Assembly (NCBI GenBank): GCA_937899725.1
Contig: CALCCA010000008.1
Coordinates: forward strand, 1-64,000
Direction: 5' to 3'
DNA from: an uncultured Halomicronema sp.
GTDB taxonomy: Bacteria > Cyanobacteriota > Cyanobacteriia > Phormidesmidales > Phormidesmidaceae
Length of the DNA: 64,000 nt
The notes below the pieces were generated by a model that was not told where the DNA came from, did no database searches, and saw only the letters and a program-made list of their open reading frames with translations. Below are positions 48,425 to 57,570 of this stretch, in pieces (the stretch's first letter is position 1; each line of letters opens with the position of its first letter). The translations under genes were made by a program, and so were the position numbers.

Positions 48425-51400
48425 TTAGGCAAAGGTGATCTCAGTGATCGCGCCGCTGCCGCCGAGGTTCACTACCAGCTTGCTGACGTCGGTTTGGTTA
48501 ATCTCGACGAGGCCTGCCTGACCGTTGCCGGTCATCACGATGTCGAGGCTGCCCAAAGAGGCCCCGTCAGCGCCGTAGAGATCGATGGAGCCGGGTTCCT
48601 CTGTGTCGAGGAAGCCGACGCTATCAATGGCCACCAGTTCATCCCAAATGAACTCCAGGGTGCCGCCACCGGCATTGTCATCGGGATTATCGCTGTTGCC
48701 GTCTTCCGACAAAATCAAGACTAGGCCAGCGGTATCGCTGCCCAAATCACCATCGCCACCGGTTGGGTTAGCCGAGTCAAACAGCATGGCTGCCAGGCCA
48801 TCGGTCGTCACGGTCAAGCCGGAGAGCTGGTCAGTAATGACGGTCCCCGCAGTGAGCCCCTCACCTTCAAAATCGAGCGCAGGGGTGGCTAAGTCGAAGA
48901 AGACAGACCCCGAGTGCTCAATCGAGCCGGCAACGGGCGCAAATCCGCCCTCAGTGGTGAAGGTGAAATCAGTCTCATCGACGATAGCAAAACCTACCTG
49001 GAAGTCTTCGTTAACCGGCTCAGCATCACTGTCAGCACCCACTAACGTGAGGCCAGCCGCCGATGCTAGCAGCGCGGTATCCAGCGCAACGCTGGTGACG
49101 CCCGACTCAACGGTGAATTCACTCTCACCCGAGAGCTCAGCATCAATGCGGGCGTCGCCGACGTCGGCTCCGATCAGCGCGTCATTACCCAAAACGCCTG
49201 CCAACTCGGGCGAGACCAGCAGATCAGCCTCATCCAACAGCAGCGTATCGCCCTCAGCCGACAGCAGCGTATCGCCCTCAGCCGACAGCACGCCGGGGTT
49301 GCCGACATCAAACAAGGGTGCATTGAACGTGATGGTATCGGCGACAAAGAAACCGCTGGCATCATCACTAACCCGTGCCGGGTCAAAACCAATCGAAAAA
49401 TCACCGACTTCGAGATCAAAATCACCAATTGCGGCCGCGACTTCTGGAGCAACGCCAAAGAGGGTTTCGTACATCACCCGGTAGATGTCAGTATTGTCTG
49501 TCGTGTCGGGCAGCAGATCCGCATTGAGACCATAGGTCTTAGAAACGATGCTACCGGCGACGTCAGACCGGGTAGCCCAAGCGACGCCAAAGTCAAAGAC
49601 ATCGCCATCGGCATCCGGTGCGCCGGTGGTGAAGGGCTCAAAGACATCGGTGCTGAAACCCGGCACATCGTTGCTGCCGTCAGTATCATCCAACTGCACC
49701 AGCACCCCATCGGCGCCAGGGCCAAAGGCTTGAGTTTCCGCCTGTACACGGATGGTGTCGTCCGATTCCGGTTCAGTTAACCCAAAGGTACCGGCCCCAA
49801 TCGGCACATCATCCACTTCTAAGCCGCCCGCATCGGAGTCAGCGGCGGTGATGATCAGCGTATTGGGGTCAGTGTTGTCCACAAAATCCATAGCGACGCC
49901 GATCGCTTCATCCGCCCGAATCGCTGCGGCGATGGTGCCCGCCGCATTGTTGTCGTTGGCAAAGTTATCCGTGGCTTCTTCTTCCATCACGAGGAAAAAG
50001 CCGTCGGGATCCGCATCCAAAATGGGCAACGCCACCTCTAGCATCTCGGCGATCGTGGGCGGATTCGGATTGAGGGGTGGCTGACCGTAGAAAATCAAGT
50101 CGCCATTCTCATCCACAAAGCCGTCACGGCGCAGTTCGTCTTCAAAGAAATCGTTGTAGGTATCTTCTGCCCCGAAAATGCCCAGCAGCTTGTCGGTATC
50201 GTCGGTGTTAACGGCCAACAGGTCATCGCGAGTAAAGACCACGGTGTAGCCAGCGGCTTCTGCCTCTTCAATCAGGTTGCGACCATCTTCGCGGGTACCT
50301 TCTTCACCAAAGACGCCGATGGTGCCGACCGGCAAGTAATCGGTCTCTCCCGCCCCGAGGATGACGTCTGGGCGCTGATCAAGAATCTCGGCGGTGATTT
50401 CTTCGGTCGCGCCGCGATTATCCACATCGGCGAGAAATGCCCCAGTCCCGGGCTCCGCGATGAAGCCGGAGTTGATGACGCCGATCGCTTTGCCCGCCGC
50501 CTGGGCTTCCTGCATGATGGTGTCGGGCCGACCCGAGAGGGAAACGATTTCTTCACCGCCCTCATCGACCGGTGCATCAAACCCAAAGCTACCAGCAAAG
50601 GGCTTGACCCCATAGGCGTGGACGACAGCCCCGCCGTTAGACGTGCCGACCAGGCGATCGTCCATGTGACCCAGATAAACGCTGGCATCACTCATCTGAT
50701 CCCAGTTCAGACGACCATCGGTGCCCACAGAAGCAAAGCGAGCTGCCGCATAGTGCGAGGGGCTGGTGCCGTCGGGGTGAATGAAGATGACGTTGCCGAC
50801 ATCGGCAGTGGGTTCCGGAGCCTGACGCGCATCGAGGTCATCGGGCACACCCTCAGGCGCAGCCAAGCTGACGCCAAACAGGCTCTCGTACATCAAGCGG
50901 TAGATGCCGGTATTGTCGATGGTGGACCCTAGGCGATCGGCCCCTTCGCCAAAGGCTTTAGTAACAATGCTGCCGGCAAAGTCGGGTAAGCCAGCCCAGG
51001 CCACGCCAAACTCGTAAACGTTGCCGTTGGCAGCCGGAGCGCTGACAAAGGGAGCCGTGTCGCTGCCCGTGGTGCCATCAAAAGGAACGGTGATGCCACT
51101 GTTGTTGCCATCCGCGTCGAGTTGGCGTTGGGTGGTGAGGGTGCCAACGGTTTCACCAGAGACGTCGTCGATTTCGAGGGAACCGCCGGCACTATCTGCG
51201 GCTGTGATGACAAACGTGTTGGGATTGACGTTGTCGATAAAGTCTTGAGCAACGCCGATCGCCGCATCGGCCCGCAGGGTGGCATCAATGGTGCCGCGAG
51301 CATTGTTGTTGTTGCCGAAGTTGTCGGTGCCTTCTTCCTCCAGCACAATCATGAAGCCGTCTTCTTCTTGGCTAAAGCGGTCGAGGTCGAGGGTGGCCTG

Positions 51401-52177
51401 CAACATTTCGGCCACAGTGGGCGGATTTTCGTTGCCGGGCTGACCGTAGGTGATCAGCTCACCGGTGTCGTCGACAAATCCCTCGGCAATCAACCGTCCC
51501 TCGGGCACATCGTTGTAGGTGTCTTCAGCGGCAAAAATACCGAGGACTTTTTCGGTATCGGCAGACAGGCTCTCCAGATCTTCGCGCGTGTAGACAACGG
51601 TATAGCCCAGCGCTGCCGCTTCTTCAATGAGGTTGCGACCATCTTCGCGAGTGCCTTCTGTACCGAAGAAGCCCACAGTGCCCACCGGCAGGTAGTCAAC
51701 TTCCCCAGCGCCCATGATGACGCTCACGCCCGACGCCACGATTTGCGCCGTGATGCCCTCGCGATCGCCCCGACTTTCCGCATCCGCCAAGAAAACGCCC
51801 GTACCGGGTTCCGCAATAAAGCCGGAGTTAATCACGGCAGTGGGGCGGCCCGCCGCGATCGCCTCTTCTAAAATCGTGGCGTCCGTGGCCGAGCCGTCAA
51901 CATTTTGGCCCTGCAGCGCCGCTAATGACGCATAGGCTTCACCATTTTCATCAAAGCCATAGCTCGGGGCCGTGGCCTTGATGCCGTAGGCATGCACCAC
52001 CGCCCCGGCATTCGAGGTAGCCACAATCGCATCATCCAGGTGTCCTAAATACACCGATGAGTAGGGGGCTTCATCCCAGTTGAGGCGACCGTCGGGACCC
52101 AGAGACTCGACCCGAGCTGCCGCAAAGTGAGACGGATCGGCACCATCGGGATGTATAAAGATGACGTTACTGGTCAT
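48425..52177 (-). CDS. Large protein with two alkaline-phosphatase-like domains
   Basis: About 1250 residues contain two homologous alkaline-phosphatase-like domains (about 1-440 and 460-905), then a 340-residue tail. Each domain has IFIHPDG.(D/S)PSH(F/Y)AAAR with the first metal Asp, TSN(A/G)GAVVHAYG where the Ser aligns with the E. coli nucleophile Ser102, EEE.TDNF.N.NNA and VI(I)TAADS. By eye the zinc-site histidines of PhoA (His331, His370, His412) align with N, S and a non-His residue in both copies. The tail ends in a beta-rich anchor-like region (GTLEFIWDELVAIDSVGFLDTEEPGSIDLYGADG). No signal peptide is seen. The protein is strongly acidic. ATG 52177 follows GGAG. Confidence 0.83.
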   Translation of the reverse strand: MTSNVIFIHPDGADPSHFAAARVESLGPDGRLNWDEAPYSSVYLGHLDDAIVATSNAGAVVHAYGIKATAPSYGFDENGEAYASLAALQGQNVDGSATDATILEEAIAAGRPTAVINSGFIAEPGTGVFLADAESRGDREGITAQIVASGVSVIMGAGEVDYLPVGTVGFFGTEGTREDGRNLIEEAAALGYTVVYTREDLESLSADTEKVLGIFAAEDTYNDVPEGRLIAEGFVDDTGELITYGQPGNENPPTVAEMLQATLDLDRFSQEEDGFMIVLEEEGTDNFGNNNNARGTIDATLRADAAIGVAQDFIDNVNPNTFVITAADSAGGSLEIDDVSGETVGTLTTQRQLDADGNNSGITVPFDGTTGSDTAPFVSAPAANGNVYEFGVAWAGLPDFAGSIVTKAFGEGADRLGSTIDNTGIYRLMYESLFGVSLAAPEGVPDDLDARQAPEPTADVGNVIFIHPDGTSPSHYAAARFASVGTDGRLNWDQMSDASVYLGHMDDRLVGTSNGGAVVHAYGVKPFAGSFGFDAPVDEGGEEIVSLSGRPDTIMQEAQAAGKAIGVINSGFIAEPGTGAFLADVDNRGATEEITAEILDQRPDVILGAGETDYLPVGTIGVFGEEGTREDGRNLIEEAEAAGYTVVFTRDDLLAVNTDDTDKLLGIFGAEDTYNDFFEDELRRDGFVDENGDLIFYGQPPLNPNPPTIAEMLEVALPILDADPDGFFLVMEEEATDNFANDNNAAGTIAAAIRADEAIGVAMDFVDNTDPNTLIITAADSDAGGLEVDDVPIGAGTFGLTEPESDDTIRVQAETQAFGPGADGVLVQLDDTDGSNDVPGFSTDVFEPFTTGAPDADGDVFDFGVAWATRSDVAGSIVSKTYGLNADLLPDTTDNTDIYRVMYETLFGVAPEVAAAIGDFDLEVGDFSIGFDPARVSDDASGFFVADTITFNAPLFDVGNPGVLSAEGDTLLSAEGDTLLLDEADLLVSPELAGVLGNDALIGADVGDARIDAELSGESEFTVESGVTSVALDTALLASAAGLTLVGADSDAEPVNEDFQVGFAIVDETDFTFTTEGGFAPVAGSIEHSGSVFFDLATPALDFEGEGLTAGTVITDQLSGLTVTTDGLAAMLFDSANPTGGDGDLGSDTAGLVLILSEDGNSDNPDDNAGGGTLEFIWDELVAIDSVGFLDTEEPGSIDLYGADGASLGSLDIVMTGNGQAGLVEINQTDVSKLVVNLGGSGAITEITFA
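49238..49285 (-). repeat. 24-bp perfect tandem duplication in the phosphatase gene tail
   Basis: Two identical adjacent 24-bp units encode LSAEGDTL twice in the region following the second phosphatase domain. The duplication keeps the frame and looks recent. Confidence 0.85.
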
Positions 52178-52195
52178 AAACTGGCACTCCATCAA

Positions 52196-55472: not shown

Positions 55473-55512
55473 AACTGCTGCAGAGATCATGATGGTGATC
55501 TCTGCAGCAGTT
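55473..55512. terminator. 17-bp perfect hairpin between convergent genes
   Basis: AACTGCTGCAGAGATCA (55473-55489) pairs perfectly with its complement at 55496-55512 around a six-base loop. The ABC ATPase and SSS symporter genes converge on it. No T-run follows on either side, so it is not a textbook terminator, but its length suits a shared transcript end or RNA protection. Confidence 0.6.
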
Positions 55513-55560: not shown

Positions 55561-57063
55561 CTACAGGGCGCTCACCTCCTCGCGAAGTTGAGCGCGATCC
55601 TGTTCAGCGGTGAGCGGATTGTAGGTGAGCTTAGACCCAATCACAAAAGCAATCAGCCCCACCAGCGGACTAATCAAAGTTGGAAACCCATCAAAATCCA
55701 GCGTGAAGAGATCATTGGGAATATAAAACAGTGTGTTCTCAATGCCAAACATGGTGGGCATCAGCGCAAAGAACACCAGGCGAGTCACCGAGCCCGCAAT
55801 AATGCAGGCCAACGCCCCCTGCCGAGTCGCTTGCACCCAGAACAAGCCCCCCAGCAGCGGCACCACCAACCCCGCAAAGCCCAAGTCAAACCCCAGCAGT
55901 AGCAGCACCCCCGTCTGCGGTACCCGCAAGCCTAAAAAGACGCCCAGCAGCGTAATGACGATCGCCATCAACCGCGTCACCAACAACAGGCGATCGCCCC
56001 CCGCGCCCCCGTGGGTCACCCCATGACGAATACCAAACACGTTGTGAGCCAACACCGAAGAAGTGCCCAAGATCGCCCCATCGGCGGTGGAAAGCGAAGC
56101 GGATAAGATCGCTGCCAGCACCATTAGCCCCAACACTGGCGGCACCACATTTTGCAACAGGGCAAACAGCACCGGGCCATCCGCGACCACACCTGCCTGT
56201 TCCAAAATGCCGCCAGCCGACAAAGCCATAATCGAAAAAGGAATGCCGATAATCAAAGTGCCAGCCGAGGCGGTGAAGCAGGCTTTTTGCGCCGTTTCAG
56301 GACTTTCTGCAGCAAAAATTCGAGCCATAAAGTCGATCGCCACCATGTTGCCAAATCCCAGCGCCAATAAGCTGGCCCAGTTAATCGCGGCACCGGCCCC
56401 CACCGAAGTGAGCTGCTCTAATGCCAGCGGCCCCATGCCCGGCGCAATCTCTAGGCCAAAGTTGGTAGCGACATAAGCAAGCAAGCCAAACGTACCCACA
56501 ACAGCAATCAAAATCTGGATCGCATCGGTATAGGCCACGGCAAAGAGACCACCCGAGACGGTGTAGGCAAAGACGAGAGCCGCCAGCAAGGTAATGCCGC
56601 CAACATAGCTCATGCCCAAAAACGTTTGGAACATGAAGCCCCCCGCGACCAAGTTGCCCGCCAGCAAAAAGGAAAAGCTGATGGACATGATGAAGGCGGC
56701 CATCAACTCCACCAAGCGCCCATACTTCACCCGATAAAAATCAGGAATCGTGATCAGCCCCATCCGGTTCATGGGCTTGGCTAAAAACGTACCGGTCAAA
56801 AACAAGCACAGCGATAACCCAATGGGTAAAGCCGCCCCTGCCCAAAAGCCAAATTCTGCGGATAAATCGGTGTTGCCCAAGGTGGCATTTGAGTCAACGG
56901 ATTGAGCCATTAACGTGGCCGCCGCTAACGGCAAGGACAGCCCTCGACCGGCCACCAAAAAATTGACGCTGTCGCCTTTAATCTGCCTAGATGCCCAGAC
57001 ACCAACACCTAAAGTGCCTAAGAGAAAAGTAATAATTCCCCACGAAAACACGCTATGTTCCAT
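55561..57063 (-). CDS. Sodium:solute symporter, probably guanidine-linked
   Basis: The 500 residues form about 13 membrane helices in the LeuT-like fold of the SSS family (PF00474): start FSWGIITFLLGTLGVGVWASRQ, early FLVAGRGLSLPLAAATLMAQSVDSNATLG (sodium-site region), ITIPDFYRVKYG, VSGGLFAVAYTDAIQ (a classic SSS motif) and ILSASLSTADGAILGTSSVLAHNV. The family includes urea, proline, pantothenate and acetate carriers. Its leader carries a guanidine-I riboswitch, from which I infer that the substrate is guanidine or a related guanidino compound. No guanidine hydrolase or carboxylase gene is nearby in the window. Confidence 0.85.
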   Translation of the reverse strand: MEHSVFSWGIITFLLGTLGVGVWASRQIKGDSVNFLVAGRGLSLPLAAATLMAQSVDSNATLGNTDLSAEFGFWAGAALPIGLSLCLFLTGTFLAKPMNRMGLITIPDFYRVKYGRLVELMAAFIMSISFSFLLAGNLVAGGFMFQTFLGMSYVGGITLLAALVFAYTVSGGLFAVAYTDAIQILIAVVGTFGLLAYVATNFGLEIAPGMGPLALEQLTSVGAGAAINWASLLALGFGNMVAIDFMARIFAAESPETAQKACFTASAGTLIIGIPFSIMALSAGGILEQAGVVADGPVLFALLQNVVPPVLGLMVLAAILSASLSTADGAILGTSSVLAHNVFGIRHGVTHGGAGGDRLLLVTRLMAIVITLLGVFLGLRVPQTGVLLLLGFDLGFAGLVVPLLGGLFWVQATRQGALACIIAGSVTRLVFFALMPTMFGIENTLFYIPNDLFTLDFDGFPTLISPLVGLIAFVIGSKLTYNPLTAEQDRAQLREEVSAL

Positions 57064-57112
57064 CGCTAGTTGCTCCAGATTTCAACATCATAAAACTGCA
57101 CAAATAACCATC

Positions 57113-57270
57113 AAAAAAGCCCGAGAGAAACCTGTGACCTTATACAGGTCAACAGATATCTCCCGGGCTTTTATCCCTCCGTGAACCAACTTGGGCTGTA
57201 CTCAACCAAGCTGGCCTGTATCTCTTGGACCGAACACTTTATCAATAGACAAAGCTGGAACCCTAGATAC
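57113..57270 (-). promoter_or_regulatory. Guanidine-I (ykkC) riboswitch with overlapping terminator
   Basis: On the minus strand, 57270 to 57113 holds the conserved ykkC-class core in order: CTAGGGTTCC (57266-57257), GGTCCAAGAG (about 57231-57222), then GGGATAAAAGCCCGGGAGA (about 57177-57159). The P1 arms GUAUC (57270-57266) and GAUAU (57160-57156) can pair. GCCCGGGAGA is also the 5' arm of a terminator whose 3' arm TCTCTCGGGC is followed by six T (57118-57113). Binding guanidine would hold GCCCGGGAGA in the aptamer and allow read-through, an ON switch. The symporter ATG follows about 50 bases after the T-run. Confidence 0.93.
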
Positions 57271-57570
57271 AAAATTTAGTTTTTCTGCAAGACTATCTCC
57301 GCACTAGAATTCCTAAAATTTGAGAACTAAATATTTCTTTTATTTCAGGAATCTATATATTAGATATCAGGTGATCTTGGAGAAATAAGTATCTCTGAAT
57401 ACGATTTACCCTCCAGTGATGTCAGCATCTCTTGACTCATGCACTGTCTTTTTGATGCGATCAATTGCTGACGTTGGTGATGACTTTACACTCAAAAGCA
57501 TGGTGCAGTCCCCTTTGAGCGGCAGTGAACGGAAAGCGAACGATATGATGACGAAGTAGCTGGAGAGCGT

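Follow-up and report, generated by a model that had tools for sequence, protein, structure and literature searches.

A riboswitch-controlled one-gene unit on the minus strand of the window (the whole 64,000-nt stretch of DNA analysed, from an uncultured Halomicronema sp., the host) probably encodes a Na+-coupled importer of guanidinium, in the form of a sodium:solute symporter of the SSS family. We infer the substrate, the coupling ion, the inward direction and the ON polarity of the switch. The importer proposal follows from the linkage of the symporter to guanidine catabolism in several lineages, and the polarity from the established behaviour of guanidine-I riboswitches, which are ON switches, together with the mutually exclusive pairing of aptamer and terminator. 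The first-pass annotation had suggested a guanidine uptake carrier, and this candidate gains comparative support at the sequence level from linkage to guanidinase operons, recurrence, co-occurrence and the frequent absence of the ABC importer from other genomes with the symporter.

Riboswitch, terminator and symporter gene in the window

Comparison of the window with all 4227 Rfam families by cmscan gave RF00442 Guanidine-I as the sole above-threshold match, aligned over the full model (1-107), and the 3′ core of the aptamer, CACGGAGGGAUAAAAGCCCGGGAGAU, agreed with RF00442 at all positions. Variants of ykkC subtype 2 respond to ppGpp, PRPP and other ligands, and one nucleotide was reportedly used by Nelson in 2017 to tell the ykkC subtypes apart; in the Rfam scoring used here Guanidine-I was the best and only riboswitch match, no rival Rfam riboswitch family scored at the leader even at relaxed thresholds, and relatives of the leader lie in guanidinase operons. 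The terminator hairpin (57168-57119; GCCCGGGAGA...TCTCTCGGGC) is followed by a T run at 57118-57113, and the segment 57175-57105 folded with a stability that none of 200 shuffles equalled. Because its 5′ arm, GCCCGGGAGA at 57168-57159, is the final stretch of the aptamer and overlaps the aptamer 3′ end, aptamer and terminator are mutually exclusive, and this arm is kept after nearly all cyanobacterial orthologue aptamers, with G-U and compensating changes. A consensus terminator scan gave no hit, probably because it restricts the geometry of stem and tail.

At the level of sequence, the leader is thus confirmed as a match to the guanidine-I riboswitch family with an aptamer-coupled terminator, for which guanidine binding and read-through are predicted. 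The ykkC/guanidine-I core in correct order and the terminator sharing sequence with the aptamer, both read by the first-pass annotation from the letters, were borne out by the full-length Infernal match on the minus strand (80.8 bits against a family threshold of 63) and by the −39.6 kcal/mol hairpin, and its interval, 55561-57270, was correct within a few bases, the aptamer actually starting at 57277.

The controlled gene encodes a 500-residue protein that scored well above the Pfam SSF cut-off (106 bits against 22.8) and has an SSS fold in its predicted model, so that its earlier assignment to the SSS family holds. The next gene past its stop codon is a convergent Opp/Dpp-type ABC ATPase, which together with the hairpin at 55510-55475 suggests that the riboswitch-symporter unit is monocistronic. 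Further along the window (48425-52195, minus strand) lies a 1256-aa protein in which the alkaline-phosphatase domain PF00245 occurs twice in tandem, apparently through internal duplication.

Table 1. Features of the riboswitch-symporter unit, in window coordinates
Feature	Position	Strand	Evidence
Guanidine-I riboswitch aptamer	57158..57277	(-)	RF00442, 80.8 bits, gathering 63, E 8.4e-13
Intrinsic terminator (expression platform)	57113..57172	(-)	-39.6 kcal/mol, z -8.6
Sodium:solute symporter gene, 500 aa; proposed Na+-coupled guanidinium importer	55561..57063	(-)	PF00474, 106 bits
Asp57 codon, first core helix break; proposed substrate-site carboxylate	56893..56895	(-)	invariant in 33 orthologues
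Asp244 codon, second helix break; proposed substrate-site carboxylate	56332..56334	(-)	invariant in 33 orthologues
Ser325-Thr326 codons, predicted Na2 sodium site	56086..56091	(-)	aligned with PutP S340/T341, invariant
Hairpin directly after the stop of the symporter gene, flanked by convergent genes; likely unit end	55475..55510	(-)	direct sequence reading

Linkage of the symporter to guanidine catabolism

The host genome contains two guanidine-I riboswitches, the second of which (contig C175, 10706-10840) heads a canonical guanidinase operon in the order riboswitch, gdmH, hypA, GS, hypB, SBP, permease and ATPase, where the last three genes specify an ABC importer and GdmH scores 825 bits against the Synechocystis guanidinase of known structure (7ESR/7OI1). 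The GS gene between hypA and hypB encodes a type III glutamine synthetase (L003:12537-13898, 572 bits). As the genome also encodes urease, the organism is predicted to take nitrogen from guanidine via the guanidinase route, and given the second riboswitch with its complete guanidinase/ABC operon, the symporter, for which the host genome holds no further significant match, would be a second, separately switched uptake route. Our guess is that the two coexisting importers differ in affinity or energy cost.

Among 390 sampled cyanobacterial genomes, 44 have an orthologue of the symporter (E <= 1e-60), nearly all 67-88% identical to it. In 26 of these 44 genomes the symporter is immediately preceded by a guanidine-I riboswitch (in the window, at loci among L036-L056, and at L058, L059, L073 and L077), three of these riboswitches being detected only by a custom covariance model, with L050 and L053 weak among the three. 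Six others (L065, L066, L070, L079, L080 and L081) have a riboswitch followed by a gdmH-hypA-hypB-symporter operon, bringing the orthologues with a riboswitch ahead of the symporter or its gdmH operon to 32 of 44, so that the pairing of riboswitch and SSS gene is indeed conserved in other cyanobacteria, across several families. The riboswitch-headed four-gene operon also occurs in Xenococcus PCC 7305, Myxosarcina, Pleurocapsales, Spirulina and others, and L055, L056 and L058 each have a divergent, back-to-back pair of riboswitches, of which one serves gdmH and the other the symporter. In Prochloron, Hormoscilla and L075 the linkage of gdmH and symporter persists with no riboswitch detected, and 11 of the 44 orthologues adjoin no riboswitch or gdmH; nevertheless, none of the 44 genomes lacks both gdmH and a guanidine-I riboswitch.

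Several loci depart from this pattern. In the Acaryochloris group (L067, L069, L076 and L082), riboswitch-less orthologues sit behind another gene, GPH/sucrose-symporter-like in L082, which we read as regulation lost or changed; NtcA-type boxes 5′ of riboswitch-less orthologues were few and not informative. The guanidine-I-like leaders at L050:3089-3207 and L053:1285-1406 (47.7 and 39.7 bits with the custom model) precede intact symporters and have an altered terminator arm, and may be decaying or altered in ligand. Two cyanobacteria from separate families have a glutamine riboswitch (RF01739) near their guanidine operon (L066:8563-8638 and L080:4566-4658). On a contig labelled as a Chloroflexaceae MAG (L126), the riboswitch-gdmH-hypA-hypB-symporter operon is of cyanobacterial type and its alignments are broken, which we read as transfer, mis-binning or decay.

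Co-occurrence points the same way as gene order. In comparisons that ignore the shared ancestry of the genomes, gdmH was present in 39 of the 44 symporter genomes versus 122 of the 346 others (Fisher p 7e-12), and among the gdmH-bearing genomes tested the ABC binding protein was missing from 18 of 39 with the symporter versus 8 of 94 without it (p 3e-6). The binding protein was searched for with the host SBP as query at E <= 1e-40, a setting that distant ABC systems could escape, and the genomes lacking it include the single-contig assemblies G024 and G193. The symporter thus seems to substitute for the ABC importer in guanidinase genomes, a pattern that functional replacement predicts.

Orthologues in Actinomycetota and haloarchaea are 49-62% identical to the symporter. 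In Mycobacteriaceae (L160, L162 and L163) the symporter comes right after a guanidine-I riboswitch and gdmH is divergently oriented, and in two further actinobacterial loci (L129 and L156) the riboswitch is followed by gdmH and then the symporter. Guanidinase activity is inferred from a Thr-Trp residue pair, T97/W305 (T105/W313 in N. inopinata; PMC11410670), and both residues were present in the cyanobacterial and actinobacterial GdmH neighbours read, except at L126, where an Arg occupies the marker in a broken alignment, and L164, which is incomplete with T97 unread. At L129 and L156 a conserved protein of 560-595 aa, alike at the N-terminus, is encoded 3′ of the symporter (L129:9633-11420 and L156:10654-12330); the L129 copy had no Pfam or NCBIfam match and the L156 copy no Pfam match, and at L129 urease alpha follows further 3′.

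The haloarchaeal relatives (53-62% identical) lie a few kb from a ureohydrolase gene in nearly all loci read, and no riboswitch was found at the haloarchaeal loci tested. The loci L130-L158 share a conserved cluster in which a symporter relative is paired with an arginase-family ureohydrolase; at L130 a MazE/PhoU-domain regulator separates the two. In the haloarchaeal ureohydrolase a Glu replaces the guanidinase Trp305, so this enzyme may act on another guanidino compound, and the pairing suggests that the wider symporter family may carry such compounds as well. Applied to the host, this would mean that the symporter takes up a larger guanidino compound, such as agmatine, guanidinobutyrate or methylguanidine, which occurs together with guanidine or gives rise to it, and that guanidine itself is only the inducing signal; larger solutes are indeed common among SSS carriers. 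We regard this as unlikely, because the partner enzyme in cyanobacteria and Actinomycetota is a specific guanidinase with T97/W305, characterised guanidinases barely use other guanidino compounds (PMC11410670), and the symporter replaces the ABC importer within the guanidinase operon itself.

Fold and predicted substrate site

The AlphaFold2 model of the symporter (pLDDT 85.5, pTM 0.86) had SLC5/SSS members as all of its top PDB matches, and the nearest solved fold was that of the Na+/choline transporter CHT1 (TM 0.81), with DUR3 at no more than 0.66. By sequence, too, CHT1 ranked first among solved chains (106 bits, about 24% identity), whereas DUR3 gave no sequence match at E 0.001. The likening of the carrier to urea importers in the first-pass annotation is accordingly weaker than an analogy with cation carriers. 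These comparisons bear directly on whether the symporter imports or recaptures urea, which is the product released by the guanidinase, is a substrate for the urease present, and is carried by DUR3, itself an SSS member. We consider this quite improbable, since CHT1 is structurally the nearer relative, urea import would leave the replacement of the guanidine ABC importer unexplained, and the invariant aspartates described below fit a cation.

The symporter is 19-23% identical to E. coli PutP, PanF and ActP and missed all equivalog cut-offs (for PutP, 105.9 versus 515.5), and the proline-specific Tyr140 of PutP aligns with Leu133; identity as a proline (PutP), pantothenate or acetate symporter is ruled out by these cut-offs and residues. 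In an SSS tree the symporter clade stood apart from the E. coli members, with outgroup branches so extremely long that rooting was not drawn. LeuT-fold carriers hold their substrate at broken core helices, and in the model these breaks fall at residues 56-57 and 242. Asp57 and Asp244 may therefore be the substrate-site carboxylates, an arrangement that would suit a cationic substrate, and carboxylates at broken helices together with an organic-cation relative such as CHT1 would fit guanidinium. Asp57 is not the counterpart of PutP Asp55, as the alignment puts it two residues on, at PutP Ser57, which the title of the study cited for it describes as critical for proline affinity.

Ser325 and Thr326, invariant in 33 orthologues, correspond to the S340/T341 pair of the PutP Na2 sodium site (PMC3866251). 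This conserved site argues against export of guanidine for detoxification in the manner of Gdx/SMR proteins, as SSS members are Na+-driven uptake symporters. Exporters are the commonest guanidine-I riboswitch targets in other bacteria (PMC12186494); here, however, the operon partner is catabolic and the symporter gene replaces an importer that has a binding protein, making export most improbable.

Proposed uptake route and relation to known systems

Taking the evidence for a guanidinium importer together, we propose that in the absence of guanidine the aptamer 3′ end, GCCCGGGAGA, would pair with the downstream arm and form the terminator ahead of the start codon, and that with guanidine bound the aptamer would retain this strand, blocking the terminator and allowing the symporter to be transcribed. 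The symporter would then accumulate guanidinium using the Na+ gradient and, guanidinium being a cation, the membrane potential as an added driving force; active accumulation is plausible given the Km of 13.6 mM reported for guanidinase (PMC11410670). The separately riboswitch-controlled Ni-guanidinase, GdmH with its HypA/HypB helpers, would convert guanidine to urea and ammonium, and urease would convert the urea to ammonium for assimilation. In other cyanobacteria the carrier would work from inside the guanidinase operon in place of the ABC importer, while the host keeps both.

More broadly, we lean slightly towards the view that the SLC5/SSS clade found in cyanobacteria, Actinomycetota and haloarchaea comprises carriers that use Na+ to transport guanidinium and, in haloarchaea, also other guanidino compounds, in which two invariant aspartates on broken core helices hold the cation, and which repeatedly replaced the ABC importer in riboswitch-controlled guanidine catabolism.

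Guanidine turnover has been recognised chiefly through riboswitches and its importers have hardly been studied; in the literature covered, ABC systems and an APC permease figure as importers or candidates (PMC12186494, PMC11410670), and a 2025 paper states that potential guanidine importers had not been addressed by any study (PMC12508155). The literature searched contained no SSS carrier tied to guanidine or its riboswitches, although an entry in the tables of key guanidine papers is possible, and the symporter very probably represents a kind of guanidine importer not characterised before. A widespread SSS clade tied to guanidinase offers a concrete single-gene importer candidate. If the proposal is correct, guanidinium joins the known SLC5/SSS substrates, a secondary carrier replaces an ABC system in many cyanobacteria, symbiotic ones included, and a guanidine-inducible import module becomes usable in cyanobacterial nitrogen engineering.

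The gdmH operon of Synechocystis PCC 6803 has in common with the present system the riboswitch class, the guanidinase, the HypA/HypB-type chaperones and the pathway, and the host has such an operon too. The Synechocystis operon includes an ABC importer, whereas the host has a secondary SSS carrier under a riboswitch of its own, and in the relatives with a symporter operon the three ABC genes are replaced by the SSS gene. The comammox Nitrospira operon likewise places a riboswitch-controlled, ATP-independent carrier beside guanidinase (PMC11410670), but that carrier is an APC-superfamily permease with predicted H+ symport, in contrast to the SSS/SLC5 carrier with predicted Na+ symport described here, which often appears as the substitute for the ABC importer in cyanobacteria.

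The SMR-family Gdx exporters (ykkC/sugE type) also move guanidinium under guanidine-I riboswitch control, but they are four-helix H+ antiporters acting in export, as opposed to a symporter with a LeuT-like core and a predicted import function. CHT1 (SLC5A7), the closest solved fold, carries an organic cation; a Trp in its first broken helix aligns with Ser55 of the symporter, which instead has carboxylates at 57 and 244. Within the same superfamily, which includes E. coli ActP, PutP and PanF have the Na2 Ser-Thr pair in common with the symporter, and PutP differs at the residues replaced by Leu133 (Tyr140) and Asp57 (Ser57).
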